DNA of 64,000 nt, taken from NCBI RefSeq assembly GCF_007421815.1, contig NZ_VLNT01000007.1, positions 122,006 through 186,005 of the forward strand, read 5' to 3'. Under the pieces are notes generated by a model that worked only from the letters and a program-made list of their open reading frames with translations, did not search any database and was not told the DNA's origin. Each line of letters starts with the position of its first letter. The first letter of the stretch is position 1. Origin of the DNA: Aeromicrobium piscarium. GTDB lineage: Bacteria; Actinomycetota; Actinomycetes; Propionibacteriales; Nocardioidaceae. Below, piece after piece: positions 2,654 through 15,797 of the stretch. A program made the position numbers and the translations under genes.

Positions 2654-3235
2654 TCAGACGGTTCGGACACCCTCGATGATCAGGATCACGGCGAAGATCG
2701 CGAAGGCGGCCGCCGCACCGTACTTGATGAACTTCTCCGGCAGGCGCTTGCCGAGCAGGAAGCCGACGACGATGGCCAGGGCATCGGCCGCGACCATCCC
2801 GACCGTGCTGCCGATCCACACCCCGAACCAGTCCTCGCGCACGGCCAGCGTGATGGTGGCGAGCATCGTCTTGTCCCCGAGCTCGGCGAGGAAGAAGGCG
2901 ACACCGACGGCGACGAGCGCTTTGCCGGTGCTCTTGCGCGCCTTGTCGGCCTCGTCCTCGGTCAGCTCGTCACCGCGCAGAGTCCAGAGCGCGAAGGCGA
3001 TGAAGGCGACGCCCGCGGCGATCGAGATCCAGCCTTGATAGTCCGAGAACGCCTCACCGACCCAGTAGCCGATGCCCACCGATGCCAGGTGCACGATCGC
3101 GGTGGCGGCGGTGATGCCGATGAGCACATCGCGCGCACGGTACCGGGAGGCGAAGGTCATGGCCATCAGCTGGCTCTTGTCGCCCAACTCGGCCACGAAG
3201 ATCACCACGGTGCTGAGCACCAGTGCTTCCCACAT
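2654..3235 (-). CDS. TMEM165/GDT1 (UPF0016) family manganese exporter
   Basis: A 193-residue, six-helix membrane protein made of two related halves, each with the family signature: AELGDKSQLMAM near residue 15 and AELGDKTMLATI near residue 118. The acidic residues of the two ELGDK motifs line the cation pathway. Bacterial members such as MneA/MneP export Mn2+ to prevent intoxication; eukaryotic members move Mn2+/Ca2+ in exchange for H+. I chose ATG 3235 because GAGGAG sits 8 nt upstream and the longer reading frame runs through the riboswitch and rnpB. Control is by the upstream yybP-ykoY riboswitch and terminator, which fits manganese export well. Confidence 0.92.
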   Translation of the reverse strand: MWEALVLSTVVIFVAELGDKSQLMAMTFASRYRARDVLIGITAATAIVHLASVGIGYWVGEAFSDYQGWISIAAGVAFIAFALWTLRGDELTEDEADKARKSTGKALVAVGVAFFLAELGDKTMLATITLAVREDWFGVWIGSTVGMVAADALAIVVGFLLGKRLPEKFIKYGAAAAFAIFAVILIIEGVRTV

Positions 3236-3236
3236 G

Positions 3237-3270
3237 AAAAAAGCTCCTCGTCCGGGTCCGGACGAAGAGC
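3237..3270 (-). terminator. Riboswitch expression platform: intrinsic terminator overlapping the RBS
   Basis: On the minus strand, a GC-rich stem (arms GCTCTTCGTCCGG and CGGACGAGGAGC) is followed by six U residues and then, one base later, the ATG at 3235. The GAGGAG Shine-Dalgarno lies in the 3' arm of the stem. The same hairpin could therefore stop transcription and hide the ribosome site when the upstream riboswitch is unliganded. The structure is read by eye; ligand dependence is inferred from the yybP-ykoY class. Confidence 0.8.
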
Positions 3271-3310
3271 CGCGTTCGACGAGTCCTCGACCGGACTCGT
3301 GAATACAACG

Positions 3311-3412
3311 ATCCGGTCGAAAGTCTCGTCCGCCAGTGACCTGGCCCGCTGCACCGGACCGGCCGGAGCCGTTCAGTATGTCGACGCAGCGATTGGGGAC
3401 TACTCCCTTTCG
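3311..3412 (-). promoter_or_regulatory. yybP-ykoY manganese riboswitch
   Basis: The minus strand carries the class hallmarks: a 5' GAAAGGGAGTAG element (rc of 3400-3411), a central region with CGTCGACATACTGA, and the 3' element GACGAGACTTTCGACC (rc of 3313-3328), whose ACTTTC pairs with the 5' GAAAG. This is the usual actinobacterial form found in front of UPF0016 genes. Mn2+ bridges the two conserved loops and stabilises the aptamer, turning on the exporter. A GATAAC -10-like element at 3422-3427 (minus strand) may drive it, divergent from the rnpB promoter. Confidence 0.93.
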
Positions 3413-3469
3413 AATCGCCACGTTATCAGGGCGGCGGGCCGCGGTGCACCGTGATCTGGGTCGCACGAG

Positions 3470-3475
3470 TACGAT
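3470..3475 (+). promoter_or_regulatory. -10 element of the rnpB promoter
   Basis: TACGAT lies 8-12 bp before the expected 5' end of RNase P RNA and fits the actinobacterial TAnnnT -10 pattern. No clear -35 is seen. Confidence 0.55.
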
Positions 3476-3482
3476 CGGACTC

Positions 3483-3876
3483 GCGAATGAGCCGGCCGGG
3501 CGGCCGCGGCATCGGTGACGATGTCGAGGAAAGTCCGGACTCCGCAGGGCACGGTGGTGGCTAACGGCCACCCACGGCGACGTGCGGGACAGTGCCACAG
3601 AGAGCAGACCGCCAGCGGCCCCTGTCGATGACAGGGGTGCGGGTAAGGGTGAAACGGTGAGGTAAGAGCTCACCAGCGCGGCGGGCGACCGTCGTGGCTC
3701 GGTAAACCCCACCGGGAGCAAGACCAAGAGGGCCTTCGGGCCTGCGCTGACGGGCGGCCCGTCCGATGTCAGCGGGTAGGTTGCACCGAGGCGCGCAGTG
3801 ATGCGCGTCCCAGATGGATGGTCGCCCCTCGCCTCCGGGCGAGGACAGAATCCGGCTTATAGGCCGGCTCATTCGC
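3483..3876 (+). ncRNA. rnpB: RNase P RNA, class A
   Basis: This is the catalytic RNA of RNase P, which matures tRNA 5' ends. Conserved region I, GAGGAAAGTCCGGACTCC, is at 3526-3543 and conserved region V, ACAGAATCCGGCTTATAGG, at 3845-3863; together they form the P4 pseudoknot. The 5' GAGCCGGCC pairs with 3' GGCCGGCTC to close P1. The length of about 390 nt and the GC-rich helices are typical of actinobacteria. The 3' end is also the attachment site of the element that follows: the last ~29 nt are duplicated at 12994-13022. The RNA end points are estimated from P1. Confidence 0.96.
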
Positions 3877-3878
3877 CC
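3850..3878 (+). repeat. attL core (rnpB 3' end)
   Basis: The 29-bp core begins at the last base of the conserved ACAGAA of RNase P RNA and runs through the P1 3' strand to the CGCCC end. It matches 12994-13022 at 28 of 29 positions (GGCCGG here, GGTCGG at the right end). Integration therefore leaves an intact rnpB 3' end here. Confidence 0.9.
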
Positions 3879-3920
3879 CACGGCCTCTGACCTGCGCAAA
3901 CTCTTCGTGACCCTGCGAGT

Positions 3921-3940
3921 AGTCCGCAGAGAGTCCGCAG
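3921..3940 (+). promoter_or_regulatory. Candidate integrase arm-type binding sites, left end
   Basis: Two direct copies of AGTCCGCAG start at 3921 and 3932, 11 bp apart, between the att core and the integrase stop. A closely similar pair with the same spacing lies at the right end (12858-12877). Arm-site function is inferred from position and duplication. Confidence 0.65.
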
Positions 3941-3945
3941 CAAGG

Positions 3946-5097
3946 TCACGAAGTCTTCTCGGTCGCACCACCTCCTTCGATTCGGTGGCTGAACGCCGCG
4001 TCGACGGCCGCGCGGGTCGTGTCGTCGGAGTCCGGCCACAGGTGGCTGTAGGTGTCCAGGGTCTCGGCGGCACTCGCGTGTCCCAGCCGAGCCTGGACGG
4101 TCTTGACGCTCTCGCCGTGGCGAATCAGCAGTGAGGCGTAGAGGTGTCGCAGGTCGTGAAAGCGCGTGCCCTCGGGGAGGCCGGCGGACTTGACTGCTGG
4201 CCGCCAGACCGCATCGCTGAACCGCGACCGCCGGTAGGGCGCACCCTCCGGGGCGCTGAACACGAGCTGTTCGCCATCGAGGTCGGCGGTGCCGTGCGCG
4301 GCAACGTGAGCAGCCAGCGCGTCGACAACGACCTGGGGGAGCGGGACGTCGCGCACGCTCGCGTCCGTCTTCGGTCGGACCAGCTTCGGCCCCGCTTCGA
4401 GATACTGGAGCTGGCGGTTGACGGTGACCGTGCGACGCAGGAAGTCGATGCGATCGATGGTGAGGCCGAACGTCTCGCCCTGCCGCAGCCCGGTTCCGGC
4501 CGTGAGGGTGACGAGCGCCTTGAGGTGCTCGGGCATCGCCTCGGTGAGCCGGTCGAGCTGATCCATCGTCATCGGGATGACCTTGGACTTCTCCGGCTTC
4601 GGCAAGCGGGTGTCAGCGCATGGGTTGGAGGCGATCTTGCGATCCCTCACCGCCGCAGCGAACACGCCGTGAATCATCCCGTGGACGACCGCGATCGTCC
4701 GGGGCTGAAGCGCCCCGCCGTTCTTCCGGTCGGACTCGGGATCTGGCGTAGCGAGCCGCTGGACCCACGCCTGCACGTCACTCGGTTTGATATTGGCGAT
4801 CGGTACGTCACCGAAGGCCGGATAGACGTGATTGCGGAACTGGCTCTCGGTGCGCTGGCGCGTGGTCTCGCGGTGCGGCTGTGCGCGACGCCATTGCTCG
4901 GCGTACTCCCTCAACGTGGTCTTGCCGGCGTTCGGGTTGACGTACTGCCCGGTGACGATCGAGGTAGTAACTTCGTCGAGCCATCGCTGAGCATCGACCT
5001 TGCGGTCGAAATGCTTCGCGTGCTCCTTGTTGGCGTTGTCCCGGTAGCGGGCGCGCCACTTGCCGTTGGGTCGTTTTGCAATGCTCTTACTCGCCAT
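3946..5097 (-). CDS. int: Tyrosine recombinase (phage-type integrase)
   Basis: A 383-residue integrase with an N-terminal arm-binding region (AP2-like, GKWRARYRD near residue 12), a SAM-like core-binding domain (about residues 60-165) and a C-terminal catalytic domain. The catalytic set is visible: R205 (GTGLRQGE), K243, H314 and R317 (HDLRH), H340 (LGH) and nucleophile Y350 (TLDTYSH). It should catalyse recombination between the element attP and the rnpB 3' end. The stop is 67 bp from the attL core, the usual arrangement. Its ATG overlaps the stop of the CGNR-like gene by one base (TGATG), so the two are cotranscribed. Confidence 0.96.
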   Translation of the reverse strand: MASKSIAKRPNGKWRARYRDNANKEHAKHFDRKVDAQRWLDEVTTSIVTGQYVNPNAGKTTLREYAEQWRRAQPHRETTRQRTESQFRNHVYPAFGDVPIANIKPSDVQAWVQRLATPDPESDRKNGGALQPRTIAVVHGMIHGVFAAAVRDRKIASNPCADTRLPKPEKSKVIPMTMDQLDRLTEAMPEHLKALVTLTAGTGLRQGETFGLTIDRIDFLRRTVTVNRQLQYLEAGPKLVRPKTDASVRDVPLPQVVVDALAAHVAAHGTADLDGEQLVFSAPEGAPYRRSRFSDAVWRPAVKSAGLPEGTRFHDLRHLYASLLIRHGESVKTVQARLGHASAAETLDTYSHLWPDSDDTTRAAVDAAFSHRIEGGGATEKTS

Positions 5098-5945
5098 CAG
5101 CCTGCCTCTCCTTTGGTTCGGGCGGCTCGTCGACGTTCGCGCTGGGACTGGTTCCTGGCATGCTGAGGGCTGCAGAACTTTGCTCCCCGTCGTCCCTCGC
5201 GCTGCGCGGCGCGGCCAATCTGGCGCTTAAACCTTCGACCACAGGTCTCGTCAGCGCAGTAGCTGTAGGGGAGACTCTCGGCCAAGTCGTTGAAGATCAG
5301 GACGCAGGCCACTTCGAACGTTGACGCGATCGCTAGACGTGCGTCGGTCCCCGCAGGGACGACAACTGGATGCACCACTTTGAGCCCCCTATTCAACAAG
5401 TCGGAGAACACTCGCCAGCCCCCGTCCTCAACATCGGCATCCAGGATCTCGCCGTTGAGCCTCTCGTCCGTGTCCCTCAAGTCGAAGGCCCCCGCGTGCT
5501 GCCAAATGGGCCCTACGGGTTCCCCTCGTAGCGCAGCCTCGGCATGGTCAGCCAGCAGGCGAATGAGCGTGACGCCGTGTGCAAGCTGCCGCAGTGATGC
5601 CTGCGTGGACCGGAGACCTGGCACGGGCGCAAACGGAAGATCCATTCGACTCTCGGCCAGCGGGGCTGACGGGTCGACGGGGCTGACGGCGTGTCTCGGA
5701 TCGCCGTAGGACTCTACGAATGACACGAGCTGGTCGGCGTCATCGACATCGAAGTCGAATACCTCCCGGAGGTGCATTTCCCGGGGCGCTTCTCGAGACG
5801 TTTCACCCATTAGCTGCTCGGTGCCGTGTTGCTCGAACCAGTCGATGTGATCCGCGTGGCAGGTGATCGGATCTCTCACGCGGAGTAGCGGAACGGGGAG
5901 GGGGTCGGGCGGACGAAGTGAGTAGCGAAAGTGAGGCTCAGCCAT
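5097..5945 (-). CDS. CGNR-like zinc-finger protein of the element
   Basis: A 282-residue protein with a variable N-terminal region and a C-terminal cysteine cluster, YCADETCGRRF followed by KFCSPQHARN, in an arginine-rich setting. This resembles the CGNR/ABATE-type treble-clef zinc finger common in actinobacterial regulators and small prophages. It probably binds DNA; a role in lysogeny control is suggested by its place upstream of, and coupled to, the integrase and divergent from the early operon. The middle part (about residues 100-220) matches nothing I recognise. The AT-rich promoter region at 5946-6012 lies directly upstream. Confidence 0.65.
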   Translation of the reverse strand: MAEPHFRYSLRPPDPLPVPLLRVRDPITCHADHIDWFEQHGTEQLMGETSREAPREMHLREVFDFDVDDADQLVSFVESYGDPRHAVSPVDPSAPLAESRMDLPFAPVPGLRSTQASLRQLAHGVTLIRLLADHAEAALRGEPVGPIWQHAGAFDLRDTDERLNGEILDADVEDGGWRVFSDLLNRGLKVVHPVVVPAGTDARLAIASTFEVACVLIFNDLAESLPYSYCADETCGRRFKRQIGRAAQREGRRGAKFCSPQHARNQSQRERRRAARTKGEAG

Positions 5946-6012
5946 GCTTCACATCTTGACGGACGATGAATAGCGTTGTCAAAACATAATCGCTACTCAG
6001 GCAGGAGAAGTT
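5946..6012. promoter_or_regulatory. Divergent control region of the element
   Basis: A 67-bp AT-rich gap separates the leftward CGNR-int genes from the rightward early operon. It holds TTGAC at 5956-5960 and GTCAA at 5978-5982 as an inverted pair, TAGCG/CGCTA arms at 5971-5975 and 5991-5995, and a CATAAT hexamer at 5985. GCAGGAGAAG before ATG 6013 is the RBS. This is the likely lysogeny switch; exact promoters are not resolved. Confidence 0.55.
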
Positions 6013-6198
6013 ATGACGCTCCCGAAGTTCCTCACCACAGAGGAGTTGGCCGAGCTGGTGCGCCAACCCCCGGAGACCGTTCGCTACTGGCGTCACGTCG
6101 GGAAGGGACCTGCGTCGTTCAAGCTCGGCCGTCGTGTGTTGTACGAGCGCACTGACGTGGAGGCCTGGATAACCGAGGCGAAGGCGGGTGCCGTGTGA
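6013..6198 (+). CDS. AlpA/MerR-type helix-turn-helix protein, probable excisionase
   Basis: A 61-residue single-domain protein of the helix-turn-helix 17 (excisionase) type: LTTEELAELVRQPPETVRYW forms the HTH, followed by the GPASFKLGRRVLYERTDVEAW wing. Such proteins act as recombination directionality factors or as regulators of element genes. A good RBS (AGGAG) precedes ATG 6013. It is the first gene of the rightward operon and overlaps the next start by four bases. Function as Xis is inferred from size, fold and context. Confidence 0.8.
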   Translation: MTLPKFLTTEELAELVRQPPETVRYWRHVGKGPASFKLGRRVLYERTDVEAWITEAKAGAV

Positions 6199-6647
6199 CC
6201 ACTGAAGTGAAAAGCCGCCCCAGGGGCGAATCTGGGGCGGCGAAGAAGCTCGGAGACGGTGGCTTCACGGTCAACGATACCGATGTTCAGCGTAAGTCGT
6301 TCGCCCTCGCGAAGATTAACGCGGGTCGCGGTCCGATCCCGAAGTACGGTTCGGCGGAGTGGGTGCTGTTGCCCGCCGACGATCCTCGTCGTGAGGCCGC
6401 GATGGCGATCGCTGCCGAGGCCTGGTTCTCCGAGGGTCAGCCCGACGTCATCGCCGGTCGCTTCTTCACCGAGCTGTACGCCGCCAGCAAAGCCGCCAAG
6501 GTCGCCGAGGACGAGGACTACCAGGCTGCCGTGGCTGCGCACCGCGAGTACTGGTCGAAGGCTGCTGCTCGTCGTGCCGGCCGGTATCCGGTTCGGCGTA
6601 CCAGCAATGTGGTGCCGTTGCGGCCGTCCGGTGGCGATGCGGCGTGA
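6195..6647 (+). CDS. Element protein, DUF2742-like
   Basis: A 150-residue protein starting at GTG 6195 in a GTGA overlap with the HTH gene. The segment PKYGSAEWVLLPADDPRREA, about residues 50-70, recalls DUF2742, a family found in small mycobacterial prophages such as phiRv1 and phiRv2. The C-terminal part is basic and ends with the motif VVPLRPSGGDA, which recurs in a related form (VVPLRGEGGDA) at the end of the next protein, a sign of shared ancestry or a common interaction tail. No catalytic residues are recognised. Family membership is tentative. Confidence 0.55.
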   Translation: MTTEVKSRPRGESGAAKKLGDGGFTVNDTDVQRKSFALAKINAGRGPIPKYGSAEWVLLPADDPRREAAMAIAAEAWFSEGQPDVIAGRFFTELYAASKAAKVAEDEDYQAAVAAHREYWSKAAARRAGRYPVRRTSNVVPLRPSGGDAA

Positions 6648-7960
6648 GCGAGGATTTCGAGCTTCAGCGTCAGATGCGGGTGACGTGGGCCGATGGGATC
6701 GAGCCGGAGCCGGTGGTATGGGCCTGGCGTGATGCCGCCGAGGGCCGGATACCGGCGGGGTCGTTGTCGGTGGCCGCTGGCCGTGAGGGGACTGGCAAGT
6801 CGTCGTTCGGTATCTGGCTGGCTGCCCAGATCACCAACGGCCGGTTGCCGGGCTCGTTCGCCGGTCGGCCTCGACGGGTGTTCTACGTCGCGGTGGAGGA
6901 CTCGTGGAGGCACACGCTCGTGCCGCGGCTGCTGGCTGCTGGTGCTGATCTGTCGTTGGTGGGCCGGCTGGATGTGGTCACCGAGATCGGGGACGAGGTG
7001 GTGCTGACGCTGCCAAGCGACAACAGCCTGTTCGAGACCGCCATCGCCGAGCACGACATCGCGCTGGTGGTGATCGACCCACTCATGAGCGTGATCGGTG
7101 GCCGGATCGACACCCACCGTGAACGGGACGTGCGGACCGCGCTCGATCCGTTGGCGAAGATCGCTGACCGGACCGGCTCGGTGGTCCTCGGCATCGCTCA
7201 CTTCAACAAGGGCGCTGGTGCCGACGCCGCGAGTCTGATCACCGGGTCGGGTGCGTTCAAGAACGTCCCTCGTTCGGTGTTCGGATTTGCTCGTGATGAG
7301 TCCGACGAACAGGGTGGCCGGGTCATGTCCCAGGTCAAGAACAGCCTGGGCCGCGACGATCTGCCGAGCCTCGGTTACCGGATCGAGGGCACCACCATCA
7401 CCACCGCCAAGGGTCCGGCCGAGACCGGCACCTTCGTGTTCACCGGCGTGTCCGAGAGGTCGGTCGGAGACGTGCTCCGCGACAGCCGCCTCGACCCCGA
7501 GGAACATGACGAGCGCCGCGATGCAGCCAGCTGGCTAATCGCCTACCTGACCGAGTGCGGCGGTGAGGCACCGTCCAGGGACGTCTTCAAGGCCGGGAAG
7601 GATGCCGGCGGATGGAGCCAGCAGTCGCTGCGGCGGGCCAGGGGCGTGCGGGTCAAGTCGTTCAAGGAGGGGATGAGCGCCGGCTGGGTCTGGAAACTGA
7701 CCGACGCGATCTTGCCCGAAGATGACACGAAGATGACGAAGGTTACAGGGGCCGAGAACCCGGCATCTTCGGCACCTTCGGTGTCACCTTCTACTGCCGA
7801 ACCGCCCGAAGGGTGCACGAAGAGTGCGAAGAGTGCAGAGCCTGAGAGTTCGCACCCTTCGCACCCTTCGGAGCCGGACGTCCTCGACGAGCTGGTGGCC
7901 GGATTCGGTGAGAACTCGAACGTCGTGCCACTGCGCGGCGAGGGAGGCGACGCGTCATGA
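6644..7960 (+). CDS. RepA-like AAA/RecA-fold ATPase
   Basis: A 438-residue protein starting at GTG 6644 (GTGA overlap). The N-terminal 270 residues form a RecA-type ATPase: Walker A GREGTGKSS at 46-54, Walker B LVVIDPL near residue 142, and an HFNKGAG motif near residue 186 typical of RSF1010 RepA-like hexameric helicases and phage-element primase-helicases. A winged-helix-like region (about 290-360) precedes a disordered S/P/E-rich tail. It probably drives replication of the excised element. The tail repeats the VVPLR-GDA ending of the previous protein. Confidence 0.8.
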   Translation: MSEDFELQRQMRVTWADGIEPEPVVWAWRDAAEGRIPAGSLSVAAGREGTGKSSFGIWLAAQITNGRLPGSFAGRPRRVFYVAVEDSWRHTLVPRLLAAGADLSLVGRLDVVTEIGDEVVLTLPSDNSLFETAIAEHDIALVVIDPLMSVIGGRIDTHRERDVRTALDPLAKIADRTGSVVLGIAHFNKGAGADAASLITGSGAFKNVPRSVFGFARDESDEQGGRVMSQVKNSLGRDDLPSLGYRIEGTTITTAKGPAETGTFVFTGVSERSVGDVLRDSRLDPEEHDERRDAASWLIAYLTECGGEAPSRDVFKAGKDAGGWSQQSLRRARGVRVKSFKEGMSAGWVWKLTDAILPEDDTKMTKVTGAENPASSAPSVSPSTAEPPEGCTKSAKSAEPESSHPSHPSEPDVLDELVAGFGENSNVVPLRGEGGDAS

Positions 7961-8088
7961 CCGTATTGCTGACGGACTGCCGGCGCTGCGCCATCGGGCT
8001 CGTCTGCTGCTACCGGGCTCAGCTCGGTGGTGACTCTGCCTGTTGCCCGGACTGCACCCACCGGCTCGAAGGGGTGACTAAGCGGTGA
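7957..8088 (+). CDS. 43-residue cysteine-rich protein
   Basis: A tiny ORF fills the otherwise empty space between the ATPase and the WhiB-like gene with ATGA and GTGA overlaps at its two ends, strong evidence that it is translated. Seven of 43 residues are cysteine (C8, C11, C17, C18, C29, C30, C33), including CRRC and CPDC pairs, so a zinc-binding knuckle is likely. No family is recognised. Confidence 0.7.
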   Translation: MTVLLTDCRRCAIGLVCCYRAQLGGDSACCPDCTHRLEGVTKR

Positions 8089-8387
8089 CAGTCCCCAACT
8101 ACCGGACGACCCCGGCACGGGCGGAAGCACTGGCTGAGCTGTACGTCGCGATCGGCCGAGCTGACGACAAGGGCGAAGTCGTGCCCTGCGTGGCCTCGTC
8201 CTCGGGATGGTGGCTGTCCGATGACGCCGAGGAACAGGAAGCGGCGGCGTGGCGGTGCATGCAGTGCCCGGTGATCACGAGCTGCGCGGGCTACATCGAA
8301 CATCACGGCGAGCTGGCCGGGGTCTGGGCCGGGATCACACAGGGGGATCGCACAAAGAGGACGAGGAAGACGGGAGAACCATCATGA
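8085..8387 (+). CDS. WhiB-like (Wbl) iron-sulfur regulator of the element
   Basis: A 100-residue protein with the Wbl cysteine pattern C35-x22-C58-x2-C61-x5-C67 (CMQCPVITSC) and a GVWAG turn at 79-83, close to the G(V/I)WGG of the family, followed by a basic tail (KRTRK). Wbl proteins bind a [4Fe-4S] cluster and control transcription, often through sigma A; phage-encoded forms can interfere with host WhiB proteins. It starts at GTG 8085 and overlaps both neighbours. The spacing C35 to C58 is within the family range. Target genes are unknown. Confidence 0.8.
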   Translation: MTVPNYRTTPARAEALAELYVAIGRADDKGEVVPCVASSSGWWLSDDAEEQEAAAWRCMQCPVITSCAGYIEHHGELAGVWAGITQGDRTKRTRKTGEPS

Positions 8388-8590
8388 CCGCGCGTTCACA
8401 CACCCGCAGCCGTGAGCGGCGTAAGCGGTTCCGGGCGAACAGTCGCCGGATTGGCCGGGAGCGTCACGAGTTCGTTGAGGTGACGTTCCAGCAACTCGCT
8501 CGAATGCTCGTCGATGAGGGCAAGGCATCGCGAGCGATTCTCGGCCCTCAGATACCCACACATCACAGGAAGCAAGGAGACGACGCATGA
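8384..8590 (+). CDS. Small basic element protein
   Basis: A 68-residue protein, strongly basic at its N-terminus (RSRERRKRFRANSRRIGRER), starting at ATG 8384 in an ATGA overlap with the WhiB-like gene. The basic half suggests nucleic-acid binding; the C-terminal half carries a short helix (VTFQQLARMLVDEG). No family is recognised. The overlaps on both sides support it as a real gene. Confidence 0.6.
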   Translation: MTARSHTRSRERRKRFRANSRRIGRERHEFVEVTFQQLARMLVDEGKASRAILGPQIPTHHRKQGDDA

Positions 8591-8850
8591 CCGAAAGACT
8601 GACTGCCAACGTCAGGCCCGTTGACCACACGCGGAGCTTGCGCGTGCTGTTGGCTTGGCTGACAGGCGACAAGCTCGCGCTGGACTATGTCCTGGAGGAG
8701 GTCATGGACGAACCCGCCGGCGTGCCCGGCCTGCTGTTCGCGCTGACCGGGTTCACTGCCGAGCTGACCGACAAGTGCTTGCCGGATGCCGTTGAGCAGT
8801 TGCGCGCCTCGCTGGCCGCGCAGGTTGGCGACGAGGAGGCCGACCAGTGA
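8587..8850 (+). CDS. Small element protein of unknown function
   Basis: An 87-residue acidic protein starting at ATG 8587 (ATGA overlap) and ending in a GTGA overlap. It appears all-helical, with a LLAWLTGDKLALDYVLEEV segment near residue 20. Nothing in it is recognised. The unbroken chain of overlaps from 6195 to here marks a single polycistronic unit. Confidence 0.6.
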   Translation: MTERLTANVRPVDHTRSLRVLLAWLTGDKLALDYVLEEVMDEPAGVPGLLFALTGFTAELTDKCLPDAVEQLRASLAAQVGDEEADQ

Positions 8851-9038
8851 GCGCCGCAGGGTGGCTGCGCTCGGCTACAACACCGGCCGACGATCCAACA
8901 GAGCGCATCATCGGTACCTCTGGCGAAGGCAGGGTACTGGTGGTCACAGCGACCGACGAGGACGGTGACCCGACCGAGTACACGTGGATGTCCCCGGCCG
9001 TCGCCGACCACTACGACGTGCGGGTGTGGTGGCAGTGA
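8847..9038 (+). CDS. Small element protein of unknown function
   Basis: A 63-residue protein starting at GTG 8847 in a GTGA overlap. It contains a predicted beta-rich core (GRVLVVTATDEDGDPTEYTW) and ends with RVWWQ. It is the last member of the overlapped chain before the repeat-bearing gap that precedes the capsid gene. No family is recognised. Confidence 0.55.
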   Translation: MSAAGWLRSATTPADDPTERIIGTSGEGRVLVVTATDEDGDPTEYTWMSPAVADHYDVRVWWQ

Positions 9039-9058
9039 CTTCGCCAGCGATTGGTGGG

Positions 9059-9295
9059 ATGATGAAGGCAGCGTCGATGAGACAAGACCCTTATCAAGGG
9101 ACGAGGAGCCGCGAGGCCAAGTTCCGAGGAACGAGAGTCGAGGATCGAGTCAACGTCAGAGGTACGGCCAGCGGTAGCCAATCCGTCCGCCTTCTGACCT
9201 CGCCAGATGCAGCAGACGCCAGCGGTAGCCAATCCGTCCGTGATCGAAGCGCACTGGCCGACATCGAACTCCGCCTACGGGCGCAGACTCCATAG
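9059..9295 (+). CDS. Possible short ORF with an internal 17-residue repeat period
   Basis: An ORF of 78 residues from ATG 9059 to TAG 9295. It encodes ASGSQSVR twice, 17 residues apart, because a 22-bp DNA repeat recurs at a 51-bp spacing that keeps frame. It ends 10 bp before the capsid ATG. It could be a remnant of a head-maturation gene, a small structural peptide, or non-coding DNA with a repeat. The RBS is weak and no family is recognised. Confidence 0.3.
   Translation: MMKAASMRQDPYQGTRSREAKFRGTRVEDRVNVRGTASGSQSVRLLTSPDAADASGSQSVRDRSALADIELRLRAQTP
9168..9240 (+). repeat. Two 22-bp direct repeats upstream of the capsid gene
   Basis: CCAGCGGTAGCCAATCCGTC plus two further bases occurs at 9168-9189 and again at 9219-9240, identical, 51 bp apart. 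It may be a protein-binding or packaging-related site, or simply part of a short coding repeat. Confidence 0.8.
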
Positions 9296-9305
9296 GAGAA
9301 CTCTC

Positions 9306-10484
9306 ATGAGCACCATCACGTCACTCGAAGCACAGCGCTCGCAGGTGCTTCTCAAGGGCCAGGCAGTCATCGACCGAGCCAAGGCCGAGAACCGCGATCT
9401 CACCGCGAGCGAGATCAAGCAGGTCGATGAGGTACACGACCTCGTGCGCGGCGAGATCGATCCTGCCATCATCGCCGCGAAGAAGAAGGCCAAGGACTCG
9501 TCCGCGCTGTTCGACGCGATCGGTGCGCTCGGCAACGATGAATCGACCAGCGATGCCTTCCGCTTGTTCGGTCGCGGCGCTAAGTCGCACGCAGCGAACG
9601 TCGCCGAACGAATGCTGGACCGCTCCGCTTTGGGTGACGGCCGCAAGGCACTGTTGACCGGAGCCTCGGTTGAGCTTGATCCTGGTGCCGCCAGCATCAG
9701 CCTCGATATCCACAACGACCCCCGCCTGCCTCTGACATTCCTGGAGCTGCTGCCCGGTGTCCGCCGTGAAGCTGCCCAGTACGTGTACATGCAGCAGGTC
9801 GGCCGCGATAACCAAGCGGCCATTGTCCCGGCGGGTGAAGCCAAGCCGACCAGCATCTACAGTGCCGGACCCAAGCAGGGTTCGCTGCAGGTCTTCGCCC
9901 ACATGTCCGAGCCGATCGACCAGTATCTGCTCAGCGACGTCTCGACACTGAGCAACTTCCTGCAGGCCGAGATGCTCTACGGCCTGCAGGTCGCCGTCGA
10001 GGACGAGGTACTCAACGGCGACGGCAGCGCCGGCCATCTGACGGGCCTGCTGCAGACCTCCGGCATTCAGGTCCAGACCCCGGCCGCTGATGCCCTGACG
10101 ACGCTGCGCGCGGCGGCGACCAAGATCGAGGTGCTGGGCTTCAACGCCAATGCCTTCGTGCTCAACCCGCTTGACTGGGAGGCGATCGAAACCGCCCGCA
10201 ACAGCTCCGGGTCCTTCGACCTCGGTGGCCCGGTGGACCGGGCAGCCCGCACCGTGTGGGGCACCCAGGTCACCCTCTCCACCCGCCTGCCCCAGGGCAC
10301 CGGAGTTGCACTGGACACGCAAGTCGTCTCGGTCGACTACGACTCGACCGGAGTGAAGTTCGAGGCTGGCACTGTTGGCGAGGACTTCTTGCGCAACCAG
10401 ATCCGGTTCCGCAACGAGGGGCGCTTCGGAGTCGCGGTCTATCAGCCCGCTGGCGTCGTTCAGATCACCCTCAGCGACGACTGA
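9306..10484 (+). CDS. HK97-fold major capsid protein
   Basis: A 392-residue phage major capsid protein. Residues 1-75 form a charged coiled-coil (EAQRSQVLLKGQAVIDRAKAE), the fused delta scaffolding domain of HK97-type proteins. The rest has the usual features: PLTFLELLPGVRREA, an E-loop region around VPAGEAKP, VEDEVLNGDGSAGHLTGLL and NAFVLNPLDWEAI. I chose ATG 9306 (AGGAG 8 nt upstream). The delta domain is normally removed by a prohead protease, but no protease gene is visible in the element. With no portal or terminase either, the capsid may depend on a helper phage. Confidence 0.93.
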   Translation: MSTITSLEAQRSQVLLKGQAVIDRAKAENRDLTASEIKQVDEVHDLVRGEIDPAIIAAKKKAKDSSALFDAIGALGNDESTSDAFRLFGRGAKSHAANVAERMLDRSALGDGRKALLTGASVELDPGAASISLDIHNDPRLPLTFLELLPGVRREAAQYVYMQQVGRDNQAAIVPAGEAKPTSIYSAGPKQGSLQVFAHMSEPIDQYLLSDVSTLSNFLQAEMLYGLQVAVEDEVLNGDGSAGHLTGLLQTSGIQVQTPAADALTTLRAAATKIEVLGFNANAFVLNPLDWEAIETARNSSGSFDLGGPVDRAARTVWGTQVTLSTRLPQGTGVALDTQVVSVDYDSTGVKFEAGTVGEDFLRNQIRFRNEGRFGVAVYQPAGVVQITLSDD

Positions 10485-10826
10485 GGGACACGCGGTGTCA
10501 ACGTCACCCTCAGCCGATCCTTTTGACCTTCTCTCGGTGGTAGGGAGCGATGGCCGATAGCGGACCCTTCCAGTCCCCGCAGTGACTCGACCAGCACCGC
10601 AACGATGGGGCCGCCGACCTGGACTCGCTACGAGTCAGGTCGGCGGCCCTGCCACTTCGTTCCTGACCGCGACCCGAGGGGTAGTGGGGGTTCCGATCAC
10701 TGGAGCGGACCCCGGTTCGACTGCCGCCGTCAGTCCTCCTACACACACGGCATTTTTTTGCAACGGACTCCCCGCACTTGACCCAAATGAAGTACGTGCG
10801 ACGGCAGTGTTAGGTACGATCCCAGG
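10485..10826. other. Gap with a strong hairpin; no gene seen
   Basis: The 342 bp between the capsid gene and the lipoprotein gene hold one strong stem (GGGGCCGCCGACCTG at 10607-10621 and CAGGTCGGCGGCCC at 10636-10649), probably the capsid-operon terminator, and an unusual T7 tract (10753-10759). No convincing ORF or RNA gene was found. Confidence 0.6.
10607..10649 (+). terminator. Probable terminator after the capsid gene
   Basis: A 14-bp stem with a short loop lies 122 bp after the capsid stop. It has no U-tract, as is common for hairpin terminators in GC-rich actinobacteria. Confidence 0.55.
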
Positions 10827-11240
10827 GTGATCCGTGCCGCAGCGCTGAGCCTCGTCACTATGCTGCTGGTTGCCGGCTGCGGCACAGACGAGCGGGAAGC
10901 CGACTCCGATACTCAGCAGACACCCTCGACGCCCGCTGAGCCAGATTCTGCTTGGGAGGGGATCGAGGGACAACGTGTCACGCCTTCTGCCTCGTGCTTG
11001 GTCGCGATGCAAGCCGCGGCGGATGAGCCCGACAGCGATCGGGCCGATACCTTGATCAGAACCTCGCTCGATGAATGCTCCGGCGTAGACGAATGGCTTT
11101 CCGCGTTAGATGAACACCCCGGAGCCCTCGGCCTGACCGAGCACGCCGTCATCGGAGCGCTGGACCTTCGCGCGGCGTGCTTCCCATCACCTGATTCCAC
11201 CGTCTGCCAGGACGCGAACGCGCGCGGCGTTACGCCCTGA
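10827..11240 (+). CDS. Element-borne lipoprotein of unknown function
   Basis: A 137-residue protein starting at GTG 10827. The N-terminus MIRAAALSLVTMLLVAGC is a lipoprotein signal with lipobox LVAGC, so the mature protein should be anchored outside the membrane through Cys18. The rest is acidic with five further cysteines that could form disulfides. A TACGAT -10 at 10815-10820 would put the transcript start at the GTG, making it leaderless. Surface lipoproteins on prophages sometimes block superinfection; that is a guess here. No family is recognised. Confidence 0.65.
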   Translation: MIRAAALSLVTMLLVAGCGTDEREADSDTQQTPSTPAEPDSAWEGIEGQRVTPSASCLVAMQAAADEPDSDRADTLIRTSLDECSGVDEWLSALDEHPGALGLTEHAVIGALDLRAACFPSPDSTVCQDANARGVTP

Positions 11241-11297
11241 ACTGATCCCTCCACTCGTCACGTAGGACGAGCCGCGAATGGTCATCGCAGAATGAAC

Positions 11298-11333
11298 GAG
11301 ACCCCGAGGTATTTCCCCTTACCTCGGGGTCTC
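11298..11333. terminator. Bidirectional hairpin terminator
   Basis: GAGACCCCGAGGTA at 11298-11311 pairs with TACCTCGGGGTCTC at 11320-11333. It lies between the converging lipoprotein gene and the minus-strand DUF2188 gene and can serve both. Confidence 0.8.
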
Positions 11334-11346
11334 GTCACGTCAGGGC

Positions 11347-11571
11347 TCAGCCCTTGACGTTGCGCGGATCGTTCCCGTAGGAGTTCTTCGCGCCGATCGT
11401 GCCGTCCTTCTTCTTGATGAAGTGCTCGACCTCATCTCGCTTCGCAGCTGCACGACCATTCGCCTGCTGCTCGGCCTTCGTTCCACCGGCGCTGAACGCC
11501 CGGCTCGAACCTTGACGCCTGCTCTTCCACGTACCGTCTTCGTAGTACGTATCGATGTCACCCTTAGCCAT
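11347..11571 (-). CDS. DUF2188-like small protein
   Basis: A 74-residue basic protein. The features TWKSRRQGSSRAFS, a central Gln/Ala helix (TKAEQQANGRAAAKRDE) and the C-terminal KKDGTIGAKNSYGNDPR match DUF2188, a small family common in plasmids, phages and some chromosomes, with no known function. I chose ATG 11571 because AAAGGAGG lies 8 nt upstream; the longer form from GTG 11580 would place the start inside the RBS region. Confidence 0.8.
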   Translation of the reverse strand: MAKGDIDTYYEDGTWKSRRQGSSRAFSAGGTKAEQQANGRAAAKRDEVEHFIKKKDGTIGAKNSYGNDPRNVKG

Positions 11572-11756
11572 CTCCCTCACCTCCTTTCGCTGGTTTGCGT
11601 TGAGCAGACCACACCGGCACGCTCAAATGCAGATGACACACGGAGGGACCATTCCGCTAACAGCGAACACCGAGTTACAGCAATGTCCGCGTGCGGAGCT
11701 GACCGCGAGAACCTTTTTCGCGGTGTCACGAAAAAGTCCGCCCCGCGCACGCGACA

Positions 11757-11781
11757 TCAATTGCGGTTGCCGCAATTGATC
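11757..11781. repeat. Perfect 11-bp inverted repeat, candidate operator
   Basis: ATCAATTGCGG and CCGCAATTGAT flank a 3-bp centre (TTG). The AT-rich ends and 25-bp size are typical of a dimeric regulator site. No cognate regulator can be named. Confidence 0.7.
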
Positions 11782-11821
11782 ACCCCGGCCCCGCACGTGG
11801 GGCAGGCGCCTCGCCTGACCA

Positions 11822-11882
11822 CCGCGACCCGCTAACCTCGTGACGTTCTTCTCAAACGTACGAAACGGTCAGCGGGTCGCGG
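11822..11882 (-). terminator. 12-bp inverted repeat after the minus-strand operon
   Basis: CCGCGACCCGCT (11822-11833) is repeated inverted at 11871-11882, just beyond the stop of the 11889-12119 gene. The 37-nt loop contains a second small inverted pair (GACGTT/AACGT). Terminator function is inferred. Confidence 0.5.
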
Positions 11883-11888
11883 AAGGTG

Positions 11889-12119
11889 TCATGACCGGAG
11901 CAGCTCGTACCGCTCAGCGCACCTTGGGCAGGTGTTCGGCGTCCCACCCTGGCCCGTCCCGACAGGATCGGCGACTATGCGGCCACGGGCCCCGCATAGG
12001 GCCATGATCTTCACGCCGTCAACGACCGACCGCAGAATGTCGTCCTTGGGGTAGTAGTGGTGGACCTTCTTGCGCTTCGTGGCCGAGGTGGTCCGCTGGG
12101 TGACGGTCGCCGCGCTCAT
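11889..12119 (-). CDS. Small zinc-finger-like protein (DUF3039-like)
   Basis: A 76-residue protein with a basic N-terminus, HHYYPKDD, an ALCGARG motif (C42) and a terminal CPRC pair (C64, C67). The pattern of one cysteine after a short strand and a late CPxC recalls the DUF3039 group of small actinobacterial zinc-binding proteins. Its ATG overlaps the stop of the preceding gene (ATGA). It is the last gene of the four-gene minus-strand operon. Function unknown. Confidence 0.6.
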   Translation of the reverse strand: MSAATVTQRTTSATKRKKVHHYYPKDDILRSVVDGVKIMALCGARGRIVADPVGTGQGGTPNTCPRCAERYELLRS

Positions 12120-12382
12120 GCCACACCTGCCGGGGTGATCGTCCGGACGATGTTGAGGGCCTGCTCGATCAGATACCCGACGGGCAGGTTCAGCGCGGAC
12201 TCGATCGCGACCAGATCGGTGACGGTGAAGCCGTCAATGCCGTCCAGGCCTTCGGCCATGTTGCCCGCGTCGATACCGGACCACTCGACGAGCTGATCCT
12301 CGGTGACCTCCTGAGCGTCCCTCGCGCGGCGGACCTCCGACGCGATCGCCCAGTTCACCGCCTCACGAAACTGAGGACTCAT
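12116..12382 (-). CDS. Small helix-turn-helix-like protein
   Basis: An 88-residue acidic, all-helical protein. Residues 25-75 (VTEDQLVEWSGIDAGNMAEG, then VTDLVAIESALNLPVGYLI) follow the layout of an XRE-type HTH domain, with an SGIDAGNM turn and a LxxIxxALxxP segment. A DNA-binding regulator is likely. It overlaps its neighbours by ATGA on both sides. Confidence 0.6.
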   Translation of the reverse strand: MSPQFREAVNWAIASEVRRARDAQEVTEDQLVEWSGIDAGNMAEGLDGIDGFTVTDLVAIESALNLPVGYLIEQALNIVRTITPAGVA

Positions 12383-12651
12383 GCCGTCTCACCCCGCTCA
12401 ATCCCGTCGAGAACGAACGAAGCGCGGAACAGCGCGTGCCCCAGCTCCCGCAGACCCTCGGCGGTCAGCTCGTCATCGGTCGGTGCGTCGAGGAACGCCA
12501 CCGGGGCTTCATCCCTGACTCCCTGAGCCAGCGAGACCCTGTAGCCCCCAGGCCCCAGCTCGATCACGCCGTTGCACTGCTCATCCTCGGGATGCTCTGA
12601 CAGGAAGTGATCGTCACACCACGATGGGCAGGTCATCGTCGCGGCGCTCAT
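12379..12651 (-). CDS. Small CPxWC-type protein
   Basis: A 90-residue protein whose N-terminus carries CPSWCDDH (C8, C12, H15), a putative metal site seen in many small actinobacterial proteins (DUF6907-like), followed by a GPGGYRVSLAQG strand region and a helical C-terminus. I chose ATG 12651, which overlaps the upstream stop by ATGA, over a longer form. Function unknown. Confidence 0.6.
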   Translation of the reverse strand: MSAATMTCPSWCDDHFLSEHPEDEQCNGVIELGPGGYRVSLAQGVRDEAPVAFLDAPTDDELTAEGLRELGHALFRASFVLDGIERGETA

Positions 12652-12827
12652 GCGACCCACCGCCCGAACTCATCGCGGCCCATCGCAGTCAGGCACTCGC
12701 CTAACTCCGCGCGAGCCTCCGACCTCGACGCGAACCCGCCGAATGTGATCTCGCCGCACTCGCAGCACGCGGCGAAGCCGTCACTGCGAGGAACTGCCTC
12801 GACCTGATGTTGTGTAGCTCGTTCCAT
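12648..12827 (-). CDS. Small cysteine-containing element protein
   Basis: A 59-residue protein with a CCECGEITFGGF segment (C21, C22, C24) and a helical, Arg/Glu-rich C-terminus. ATG 12827 is preceded by AAGGAG at a good distance. It is the first gene of the four-gene minus-strand operon, whose promoter must lie in the 165-bp AT-rich stretch toward attR. No family is recognised. Confidence 0.6.
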   Translation of the reverse strand: MERATQHQVEAVPRSDGFAACCECGEITFGGFASRSEARAELGECLTAMGRDEFGRWVA

Positions 12828-12857
12828 GTCTCCATCTCCTTGCTTCCGATACAGAGC

Positions 12858-12877
12858 TGTCCGCAGACAGTCCGCAA
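12858..12877 (+). promoter_or_regulatory. Candidate integrase arm-type binding sites, right end
   Basis: TGTCCGCAG at 12858 and AGTCCGCAA at 12869 repeat the left-end pair with the same 11-bp spacing and orientation. Next to them CAAAACGGT occurs twice (12875 and 12885), 10 bp apart, possibly accessory or Xis sites. Confidence 0.65.
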
Positions 12878-12993
12878 AACGGTTCAAAACGGTATGCGTC
12901 AGCAAATGCTCACCAACGCCTGAAATCAATGTTTGTGCAGGTCAGAAGGTTTATCCATGGATAACCAACGGTAGTCATCGGAAGCTCATCAAT

Positions 12994-13022
12994 ATCCGGC
13001 TTATAGGTCGGCTCATTCGCCC
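12994..13022 (+). repeat. attR core
   Basis: This is the right-hand copy of the 29-bp rnpB 3' end. It differs from attL at one base (T for C in GGTCGG), which would still pair as G-U in RNase P helix P1. Chromosomal sequence resumes after it. Confidence 0.9.
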
Positions 13023-13074
13023 TTAGGCTCTGACCTGTCCGGAGCTCGCCTGATGTCGTCGGCTGCCTCGCACG

Positions 13075-13156
13075 GAGGATGTGTTTCGGCGGTTGTCATA
13101 GCTACCACGGAGGCACATCCTTCGTGCAACCACGAAAGCACATCGTCCGTCCGGCC
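13075..13156. repeat. Intergenic inverted repeat (GGATGTGC/GCACATCC family)
   Basis: One forward arm (GGATGTG at 13077) is followed by two reversed arms (GCACATCC at 13113 and GCACATCG at 13138), 25 bp apart. Close relatives lie at 40741-40860. The stretch 13023-13271 is otherwise without genes. Confidence 0.7.
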
Positions 13157-13271
13157 CCGTCGCGCCTGACGCCTCCGGTGAGCGGCACGCCCGTGCCCGA
13201 CCCGAGTGGTCCTGGCCTCGCGGGGAGGGCTGCCCAGATCTCGACCATCGCGCCAGCGCCCACCGGGTAGG

Positions 13272-14519
13272 TCAGCCCGCCGTGACTGACCGCAGTGATG
13301 TCGCGATCTGGTCGTAGCCGCGCTGCTCGGCATGTGCCAGTGCCGTCATCCCGTCGTTGTCGGTGATCGACGGATCGGCACCGGCCTCCAGCAGAATGTC
13401 GACGATCCGCTGGTGAGCCTCGCCGCCGTCCCCGAGGATCACTGCCTCCAGCAGGGCCGTCCACCCCAACTGATTCACGTGATCGACATCGATCCCCGTC
13501 TGCACCACACGACGGACGTAGTCCACATGTCCGCGCTCGCTCGCCGGGATCACCGAGACGCCGCCGAAGCGGTTGACGATGGTGAGATCCGGTTCCGCCG
13601 GCAACAGTGTCTCGAGCATCGCGACACTCCCCGTCACCCCGGTGAGGAGCCAGGCCGTGTCGTGACGGTCGTCGAGCACATCGGGATCGGCGCCGAGCGC
13701 CACCAGCACTCGCGCGGCAGCCACGTGGTCGCCGATCGAGGCGTGCAGCAACGCCGTGCGGCCATCCTCGCCCCGCGCATCGATGTCCGCTCCCGCGCGG
13801 AGCGCCCGAGCGACGAGATCCGCATCGCCATCGGCAGCCGCGCGCAACAGGGTCGCATTCGCATCACCCTCCGCGACAGGCGCCGTCGTGGCCTCGAAGA
13901 CGCCCACGAGGCCGGTGAAGCCGCGCTGCCCGGCCAGCTGCGTCGGCGTGAGACCCTGGCGATCCGAGCGACGGTCCGCTGTCGCCCCAGCGGCGATCAG
14001 CACTCGTACGGTCGTCGCGTAGTCCGCATCGTCACGCCCGAGCCACGCCGCCTCGTGGATGGCCTGATAGCCCAGATTGTTGACGTGATCGAGGTCGACA
14101 CCGGTCCGTACCAGATCACCCACCACGTTCGCATGACCGCGCTCGGCGGCCCGGATCAGCGCAGTGCCCTCGAAGGAGTCCAGTGCCGTGACATCGGCCC
14201 CGGCGTCGAGGGCGAGCCGCAGGATGTCGAGATGGCCCTCACTCGCCGCGATCAGGAAGGACGACTGCTGTGTCTCGTCCTGGTGGTCGACGTCCGCCCC
14301 GCGCTCGATCAGATCGGTGACCGCGGGCACGTCGTTCGCCCAGGTGGCCTCGATCAACGCGGTATCGAGGTCCTCCTGGGACAGCTCTTCGGCGGGTGCC
14401 GTGCTCACGGAAGGAATCGTCTCAGCCGGCGGAACGGCGGCCGGCGTCGTGTCCGCACAGGCGGCGAGCAGCGCACCCAGCGCCAGCGTGACGAGCGGGA
14501 AGGAGACCGATGACCTCAT
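13272..14519 (-). CDS. Ankyrin-repeat lipoprotein
   Basis: A 415-residue exported lipoprotein. The signal MRSSVSFPLVTLALGALLAAC ends in lipobox LLAAC; a short P/A-rich linker follows, then two blocks of ankyrin repeats (roughly residues 55-220 and 250-415) with repeating LIERGADVDHQDE and GRTALLHAS-type units. The two blocks look like an internal duplication (HVNNLGYQAIHEAAWLG and HVNQLGWTALLEAVILG). It should act in protein-protein binding outside the membrane; the partner is unknown. I chose ATG 14519; longer frames run into non-coding sequence. It is monocistronic. Confidence 0.85.
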   Translation of the reverse strand: MRSSVSFPLVTLALGALLAACADTTPAAVPPAETIPSVSTAPAEELSQEDLDTALIEATWANDVPAVTDLIERGADVDHQDETQQSSFLIAASEGHLDILRLALDAGADVTALDSFEGTALIRAAERGHANVVGDLVRTGVDLDHVNNLGYQAIHEAAWLGRDDADYATTVRVLIAAGATADRRSDRQGLTPTQLAGQRGFTGLVGVFEATTAPVAEGDANATLLRAAADGDADLVARALRAGADIDARGEDGRTALLHASIGDHVAAARVLVALGADPDVLDDRHDTAWLLTGVTGSVAMLETLLPAEPDLTIVNRFGGVSVIPASERGHVDYVRRVVQTGIDVDHVNQLGWTALLEAVILGDGGEAHQRIVDILLEAGADPSITDNDGMTALAHAEQRGYDQIATSLRSVTAG

Positions 14520-14627
14520 GGGCCAAGCCTCTCGCGGTATCCAGCGGCGCAGCACCGTCGCTCGGCCATCGCGCGATAGCCGAAGGGATGATGCCGAGCG
14601 CGCCGCCTCCGCGTAATCTCGGCTCCC

Positions 14628-15797
14628 ATGGACCAGGTGCGACGCGGTGTGCTCGGTGCCGTCGGCGGCCTCGACCGGTGGCTCGCAGGCGTCACCGCCG
14701 TCTTCGTCCTCGCCGCCACCGTCCGGTACATCGATCGCCACGATCCCGGCCCGGTGCTGGCTGCCGCGGTCGTGCTCACCATCGCGGTGGTGTGGTGGGC
14801 CGCGCGTCATCCCCGCCGGCCTGCCGTCGACGCGGCCTTCGCCATGGTCGTCGTGGCCCTCTGGGCGGGCCTGACCTTCGCTGCCCCCTCCTTCGCCTGG
14901 GTCGCCGTGCCCCTGGCGTTCATCGTCTTGCGGTCACTGCCGCAACCGTCGGGCGGCGCGGTGGTCCTGGCGATGGCCCTCGTCGTCGTCATCGCCGGAT
15001 CGCGTTTGAGCGACCGTTTCGACCCCACGCTGATCGTCGGACCGCTGGGCCTCGCGGGCATCGCCGTCGCCGCATATCACGGGCTGCAGCGTGAGTCCGA
15101 ACGCCGACAGTCGCTCCTCGACGAGCTCACCGCGGCGCAGGAGCTCCTGGTCGCCGAGCAACGCACCGTCGGAGCGTTGCGCGAGCGCACCCGCCTGGCG
15201 CGCGAGATCCACGACTCGGTGGGACAGGGCCTCTCCAGCATCGTGTTGCTGCTCGACGCGGCACGCCGGTCCTGGGAGAGCGACCCGGATCGTGCCCGCG
15301 AGAACGTCACGATGGCCGAGGGCAGTGCGCGGCACGAGCTCGTCGAGGTGCGGCGCGTGATCGGCGACCTCGCACCAGCCGCTATCCACACGGGCGAGCA
15401 GCTGGTCGGCGCGATCGACGCACTGCTGCGCCGCGACGCGCCCCCGGAGATCGAGGTCGAGCTGCGGGTCGACGGCGACCGCGAGTCGCTGGCGCCAGGC
15501 GTCGTCCACACGGTGCTCGCCACCGTGCGGGGCGCCGTCGCCAACAGCGTCGAACACGCGCGGGCGTCGAGGATCGTCGTGACGCTGGTCTTCCACCCCG
15601 GCCGGCTCACCCTGGACGTGCACGACGACGGGCGCGGCTTCGATCCCGCAGGCGTCGGGTCGGCGGGGGAGCGCGGCCGCGGCCTCGGCGGCCTGCGATC
15701 CCGGGCTGAAGAAGGCGGCGGTGAGGTCATGATCGAGTCCACCGTCGGCGAGGGCACCACGGTGAGCCTGCACCTGCCGCTCGAGGAGGACGCATGA
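14628..15797 (+). CDS. NarL-type sensor histidine kinase
   Basis: A 389-residue kinase. About five membrane helices occupy residues 15-150 and no extracellular sensor domain is visible. A HisKA_3 dimerisation domain follows with REIHDSVGQGL (phospho-acceptor His195), then an HATPase_c domain with DDGRGFDP and GRGLGGLRSR. It should phosphorylate the response regulator encoded directly downstream (ATGA overlap). The signal is unknown; the few-residue loops suggest sensing within or at the membrane. TAATCT at 14614-14619, 8 nt before the ATG, suggests a leaderless start. Confidence 0.92.
   Translation: MDQVRRGVLGAVGGLDRWLAGVTAVFVLAATVRYIDRHDPGPVLAAAVVLTIAVVWWAARHPRRPAVDAAFAMVVVALWAGLTFAAPSFAWVAVPLAFIVLRSLPQPSGGAVVLAMALVVVIAGSRLSDRFDPTLIVGPLGLAGIAVAAYHGLQRESERRQSLLDELTAAQELLVAEQRTVGALRERTRLAREIHDSVGQGLSSIVLLLDAARRSWESDPDRARENVTMAEGSARHELVEVRRVIGDLAPAAIHTGEQLVGAIDALLRRDAPPEIEVELRVDGDRESLAPGVVHTVLATVRGAVANSVEHARASRIVVTLVFHPGRLTLDVHDDGRGFDPAGVGSAGERGRGLGGLRSRAEEGGGEVMIESTVGEGTTVSLHLPLEEDA

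Follow-up and report, generated by a model that had tools for sequence, protein, structure and literature searches.

An integrative element at rnpB of Aeromicrobium piscarium with a lone capsid gene, probably a phage satellite

The element at rnpB and its genes

We analysed a 64,000-nucleotide stretch of the Aeromicrobium piscarium genome (assembly GCF_007421815.1, contig NZ_VLNT01000007.1, positions 122,006 to 186,005 of the forward strand; hereafter the window, whose own numbering is used throughout), in which a small integrative element lies at rnpB, the gene for RNase P RNA. The rnpB RNA (class A) is at 3488-3875 on the plus strand, matches Rfam RF00010 over model positions 1-367 with 278.5 bits, is full length and is the only copy in the genome. 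The element is bounded by two plus-strand attachment (att) repeats, attL at 3850-3878 and attR at 12994-13022, each a copy of the rnpB 3' end. These direct repeats are identical at 28 of 29 bp and spaced 9,144 bp apart, which is the element size, in keeping with the duplicated rnpB 3' end noted in a preliminary description of this DNA. Since the left repeat is itself the rnpB 3' end, the element sits at that end and rnpB is whole; the element entered there by site-specific recombination and left the gene unbroken. The GC content of the element is 64.5%, compared with 69-70% in the flanks.

A tyrosine integrase of 383 aa (3946-5097, minus strand; PF00589 1.2e-22, phrog_1 1.4e-74) lies at the left end. 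Further right, eight genes read rightward from 6013 to 9038 with a 4-bp overlap between each neighbouring pair, in agreement with the tiny coupled genes of the preliminary description. They encode, in order, an excisionase-like helix-turn-helix (HTH) protein (6013-6198; PF12728 1.1e-12, phrog_66 1.1e-9), orf150 (6195-6647; cluster F14, also in relatives L030 and L070), a RepA-like AAA_25 replication ATPase of 438 aa (6644-7960; PF13481 1.1e-29, and phrog_10729 1.7e-59, a DNA polymerase/primase family), the tiny Cys-rich orf43 (7957-8088), a WhiB-like regulator (8085-8387; PF02467 2.7e-8, cluster F03 in eight loci), the small basic orf68 (8384-8590; no PADLOC match), orf87 (8587-8850) and orf63 (8847-9038), all on the plus strand. 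For orf63, Pfam also gave an RHS match (E 0.02), dismissed as chance. After a gap of 267 bp comes the gene for an HK97-type major capsid protein of 392 aa (9306-10484, plus strand; PF05065 9e-23), for which the start at 9306 was adopted and an upstream ATG at 9207 rejected. The integrase, ATPase, WhiB-like regulator and single capsid gene named in the preliminary description were thus all recovered by Pfam.

Phage functions were sought with Pfam and PHROGs on every called gene and by tblastn, for which the queries were annotated genes from three phages, Lton, TinaLin and Shoya. The element showed no match above noise to terminase, portal, protease, connector, tail or lysis genes, which upholds the earlier statement that it has no terminase, portal, protease or tail genes, while identical queries do detect such genes beside capsids in the true prophages of relatives. 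With no recognised terminase, portal, tail or lysis gene, the element does not have the make-up of a prophage.

A clade of lone capsid proteins

The structure model of the capsid protein (predicted local distance difference test, pLDDT, 79) carries N-terminal delta-like helices and resembles the HK97 prohead and its relatives, with PDB matches to HK97, phiXacJX1 and D3. Residues K180, N364 and E371 align with HK97 K169, N356 and E363, the cross-link lysine, cross-link asparagine and catalytic glutamate, respectively. This triad is kept in every lone capsid that is not truncated there and is lost in four of 21 compared phage capsids. An encapsulin was also considered and rejected, because the leading matches in both sequence and structure are phage capsids and delta-like helices at the N-terminus suit a phage head.

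The best matches of the capsid protein are on Streptomyces pWTY27 and a Rhodococcus plasmid, both of them small replicons, and phages, among them Gordonia and Arthrobacter phages with homologous capsids, reach at most about 30% identity. In each of two trees the lone capsids form one clade, with support of 100/100 in the first and 100/99 in the second, which includes the phages nearest to family members, and capsids of Mycobacterium (L076-L079) fall within it. Two relatives from the host family (L036 and L039) form a second lone-capsid lineage apart from the main clade. When the window capsid and those of L061, L066, L072 and L081 were used as queries of viral contigs and phage records, mostly true phages were returned and the clade gained only L081 and L082. 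The latter, a viral-collection contig with tape-measure-like and adaptor-like genes, may be a satellite with added tail parts (3591-9217).

Searching 84,980 species genomes with aligned lone capsids yielded 21 loci; this query biases the sample toward the clade, yet does not select for missing neighbours. Matches to terminase, portal or tail genes were found near none of these 21 relatives, 17 of which were read over 10 kb on each side while the other four end early at contig ends, and a protease adjoins or is fused to the capsid in two. A fusion is seen in a Propionibacterium element, where prohead protease and capsid protein share a single frame (L062:9410-11140). The clade spans at least ten actinobacterial genera, and the loci come from Rhodococcus, Gordonia, Jongsikchunia, Arthrobacter, Streptomyces, Mycobacterium, Propionibacterium, Actinomyces, Occultella, Arsenicicoccus and others; the genome of Jongsikchunia kroppenstedtii hosts two different elements with clade capsids (L066 and L074). 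A recurrent gene order of integrase, HTH, replication gene, WhiB, orf87-like gene and capsid is seen among them. The orf87 family (F06), small proteins recurring directly upstream of the capsid gene, is also present in L029, L030, L060, L061, L064 and L081; the window protein is modelled with four helices (pLDDT 71) and has no fold match in PDB or viral models, and it is missing from the phage collection.

Direct repeats, mostly at tRNA 3' ends, delimit 12 integrated elements, 11 of which measure 6.9-9.8 kb by repeat spacing. The window element (9,144 bp) stands alongside others of 8,971, 7,983, 8,888, 9,013, 9,845, 6,869, 9,047, 8,738 and 7,330 bp, one of 7,140 bp from the second lineage and a lone outlier of 14,748 bp. 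Extrachromosomal members are also known: L081, a viral-collection contig, is a circle of 8,293 bp that closes by a 127-bp overlap, and the 13.6-kb Rhodococcus plasmid is a dimer, with two almost perfect copies of a 6.8-kb unit. Both are evidence of excised or plasmid forms but not of packaging. Small terminase (TerS) genes occur in two siblings (L029, PF23931 3e-16; L063, PF05119 1e-16) and an HNH endonuclease in another (L055), which would fit redirected packaging. In the closest capsid-family pairs dN/dS is 0.095-0.36, indicating purifying selection; distant pairs, being near saturation, were left out of this reading.

The capsid gene is intact and comes from an old clade whose members, rare exceptions aside, sit in small elements devoid of terminase, portal and tail genes. 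An alternative is a prophage remnant that has lost everything except its integrase, replication and capsid genes, and the homology to Gordonia and Arthrobacter phage capsids is in its favour, as is a sibling of decayed appearance with broken integrase and capsid genes (L075). It is already contradicted, however, by one capsid clade across many genera with the identical gene set missing throughout, by intact genes, purifying selection and clean att repeats, and by the inspected kin at rnpB, none of which is a full phage, and we regard it as the least probable of the readings considered. The preliminary description had named decay of integrase, capsid and ATPase, or relatives with a full phage at the same site from which this element had eroded, as findings that would overturn it; there is no such decay, the cross-link residues are kept, selection on close pairs is purifying, and none of six rnpB relatives of the same integrase subfamily is such a phage. 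The element is not an eroded prophage, given the clade of lone capsids, relatives that also lack terminase, portal and tail genes, narrow sizes, intact triad, purifying selection and the TerS of siblings.

A probable satellite with one virion gene

We consider it probable that the element is a functional integrative phage satellite in which the capsid protein is the only virion gene. It is established background to this reading that the HK97 capsid protein, when it has its delta domain, needs neither portal nor protease for assembly. Upon infection by a tailed phage, the element would excise and replicate by its own ATPase, and the WhiB-orf87-capsid module would be expressed. The capsid protein, with its own delta-like scaffold, may then form or co-form a small head around the helper portal, to be matured by the helper protease, filled by the helper large terminase (TerL) and joined to helper tails; in siblings with their own TerS, this protein would steer packaging to the element. 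A small head would suit an element of 7-10 kb better than it suits the genome of the helper. The element would presumably depend on a helper, and the shell might be pure or mixed with the capsid protein of the helper. The compact satellite making its own capsid protein, as put forward in the preliminary description, is thus the best-supported reading, while building a shell alone and relying on a helper belong to this conditional part.

The closest functional parallel is Ccm of SaPIbov5, a cos-type Staphylococcus aureus pathogenicity island (SaPI). Ccm is a lone, delta-bearing capsid homologue of HK97 fold in a satellite with no known protease, and by cryo-electron microscopy it takes pentamer positions beside the helper capsid protein, yielding small T=4 heads (PMC8569155). 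The window element likewise has a single delta-type HK97 capsid homologue, judged by sequence and predicted structure, and no recognised protease. It differs in host phylum, regulators and integration site, with no Stl-type system identified in it, and whereas the placement of Ccm was seen by cryo-electron microscopy, the window capsid is known from genes and predicted structure. The best reading is that the element works like a Ccm-type satellite. As in phage-inducible chromosomal islands (PICIs), there is a specific att site with an own integrase and excisionase (the rnpB repeats, the integrase and the HTH protein) and an own replication module (the AAA_25/primase-type ATPase) (PMC6092414). 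Gram-positive PICIs, however, are defined by having no phage structural or lytic genes, and the window element has one capsid gene, as do SaPIbov5 and PmCI172 (PMC6092414). Because of this strict definition, and because phage induction and packaging are inferred steps, PICI status itself is not assigned.

Elements with an integrase and a capsid gene are already known in Mycobacterium, where phage-like regions of this make-up, including phiRv1 and phiRv2, are candidate PICIs (PMC10654092), and the window element is a variant of that kind, being small and integrated with an integrase and a major capsid gene. It differs in genus, in its tyrosine integrase at rnpB and in its WhiB-orf87-capsid module; phiRv1 is characterised by a large serine integrase. 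The phiRv1-like relic of the preliminary description was right in kind, but the term relic is not supported. phiRv1 and phiRv2 are likened here by description, and the placement of mycobacterial elements in the clade rests on the L076-L079 capsids. The preliminary description had also given capsid-forming PICIs (cf-PICIs), satellites with their own capsid protein, as an example of phage satellites, but the element does not fit among them, since that class encodes a full head and packaging set of protease, portal, connectors and terminases (TerS/TerL) beside the capsid (PMC10690885), whereas the window element has the capsid only. Similarly, the Streptomyces satellites MulchRoom and MiniFlayer are actinobacterial and carry a capsid, but they have full packaging and head modules and no primases (PMC10690885), in contrast to a replication ATPase and a capsid alone.

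Several observations weigh against a functional satellite. PICIs are marked by a TerS or by a pac/cos site like that of the helper (PMC6092414), and no TerS was recognised in the window element by Pfam or PHROGs on every called gene. The rest of the host genome, searched by protein families, lacks a second PF05065 capsid, and PF03354, PF04860, PF03237 and PF20441 have no match in it; the complete prophage that the preliminary description had suggested looking for was thus not found by capsid, TerL and portal families, and with no resident prophage of these families a helper would need to come from outside. A clean empty site was not found in congeners: in the nearest one rnpB abuts DNA matching window position 16,400, and no clean junction results because window positions 13,023-16,400 are also absent there. 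The broken integrase and capsid of L075 count here too. The closest described plasmid member, the 14.3-kb Streptomyces replicon pWTY27, has a lone capsid of the same clade but, unlike the window element, is conjugative with TraA/TraB, and its authors noted merely gene transfer between plasmid and phage (PMC3583192), so the capsid gene need not imply capsid-based transfer. Finally, all members are known as sequences, and their helper phages, induction, packaging and particles are so far hypothetical.

The pWTY27 capsid also lends itself to an interference explanation, in which the lone capsid protein poisons or diverts the assembly of incoming phages and the element is a defence island with some other means of spread. 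The element does contain a candidate defence gene, encoding a DUF2188 protein (11347-11568, minus strand; PF09954 4.3e-14) that matches family PDC-S16 (PADLOC 1.2e-17), and satellites often interfere with their helpers (PMC6092414). However, the kept cross-link triad and delta-like domain exceed the needs of a simple poison, two siblings combine the capsid with TerS, a packaging function, and the elements keep to a narrow size range; we therefore view interference as unlikely, though the most credible of the rivals to a satellite.

Our results add a broad actinobacterial family, which has a capsid clade of its own, to the single-capsid satellites of staphylococci and mycobacteria, and they suggest that many of the small "incomplete prophages" in actinobacterial genomes are satellites in complete form. 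Should small heads be built by the single capsid protein, these elements would allow the setting of shell size by one protein to be studied in a minimal natural system. They would also be a means by which genes move between soil actinobacteria and which prophage finders would score as decay.

Integrase relatives at rnpB and the remaining genes

Integrase kin in the host family are 50-67% identical, and all six elements that were read lie at rnpB: L119 (same genus, 14.1 kb), L138, L140, L141, L143 and L144. None has a capsid gene. Three carry a tape-measure-like gene (L138, 780 aa, PHROG 8e-11; L140, 1217 aa, 3e-75; L143, 1084 aa, 6e-11) and have no capsid or portal, with a minor tail gene in addition in L143 and a weak TerL-like match in L138, and L144 (9.3 kb) carries a TrwC relaxase (2990-6727). 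What is new here is that rnpB siblings of the same integrase subfamily have, in place of the capsid, a tape-measure-like gene in three cases and a relaxase in one, pointing to one integration backbone with varied transfer-related parts. L138, L140 and L143 may be satellites that determine how long the helper tail is. PICIs are described as using att sites that prophages never occupy (PMC6092414); no prophage was found at rnpB among 29 congener rnpB loci or these six elements, a small sample.

The rnpB integrase backbone so appears, from its relaxase gene, to serve a conjugation-mobilised element in L144. This relaxase and the TraA/TraB of pWTY27 would also suit an actinomycete integrative and conjugative element (AICE) or integrative mobilizable element (IME) carrying a domesticated capsid as cargo, and a RepA/integrase backbone is akin to those of actinobacterial integrative elements in general. 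Neither an FtsK/TraB translocase nor a relaxase was found by Pfam or PHROGs in any called gene of the window element, however, and such an element seems highly improbable, well behind interference.

A wider idea, to be taken as speculative and itself rather doubtful, is a satellite family in which every member has a single phage gene that determines virion dimensions. The monophyletic capsid with orf87 would give a small cross-linked shell for 7-10 kb genomes, and a lone tape-measure-like protein at rnpB would set helper tail length, single ruler parts being swapped on a shared backbone.

Among the remaining genes, the 282-aa protein beside the integrase (5097-5945, minus strand) has a CGNR-like Cys motif at its C-terminus, a likeness seen by eye only, and no match in Pfam, PHROGs or PADLOC; by position comparison it occupies the slot of a Cro/C1-type repressor in relatives. 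The cargo block to the right of the capsid gene begins with a possible lipoprotein (10827-11240, plus strand), with a signal/lipobox-like N-terminus by eye, no family and a weak coding score. On the minus strand, beyond the DUF2188 gene, follow a DUF3039 protein (11889-12119; PF11238 5.1e-9), the weakly repressor-like orf88 (12116-12382; phrog_4583 2.3e-4), orf89 (12379-12648; weak DUF6907 match, 0.0038) and orf59, an open frame for a short Cys-containing protein (12648-12827). To the right of the element, the stretch at 13023-16400, which the nearest congener lacks as a whole, includes an ankyrin-repeat gene. Two congeners have a second, partial rnpB (L116:6723-6989 and L117:6744-7014) of about 200 nt of the 3' half, 3.9-4.2 kb downstream; that of L116 is 94% identical to the first copy, and in both the enclosed DNA consists of ordinary genes with no integrase.

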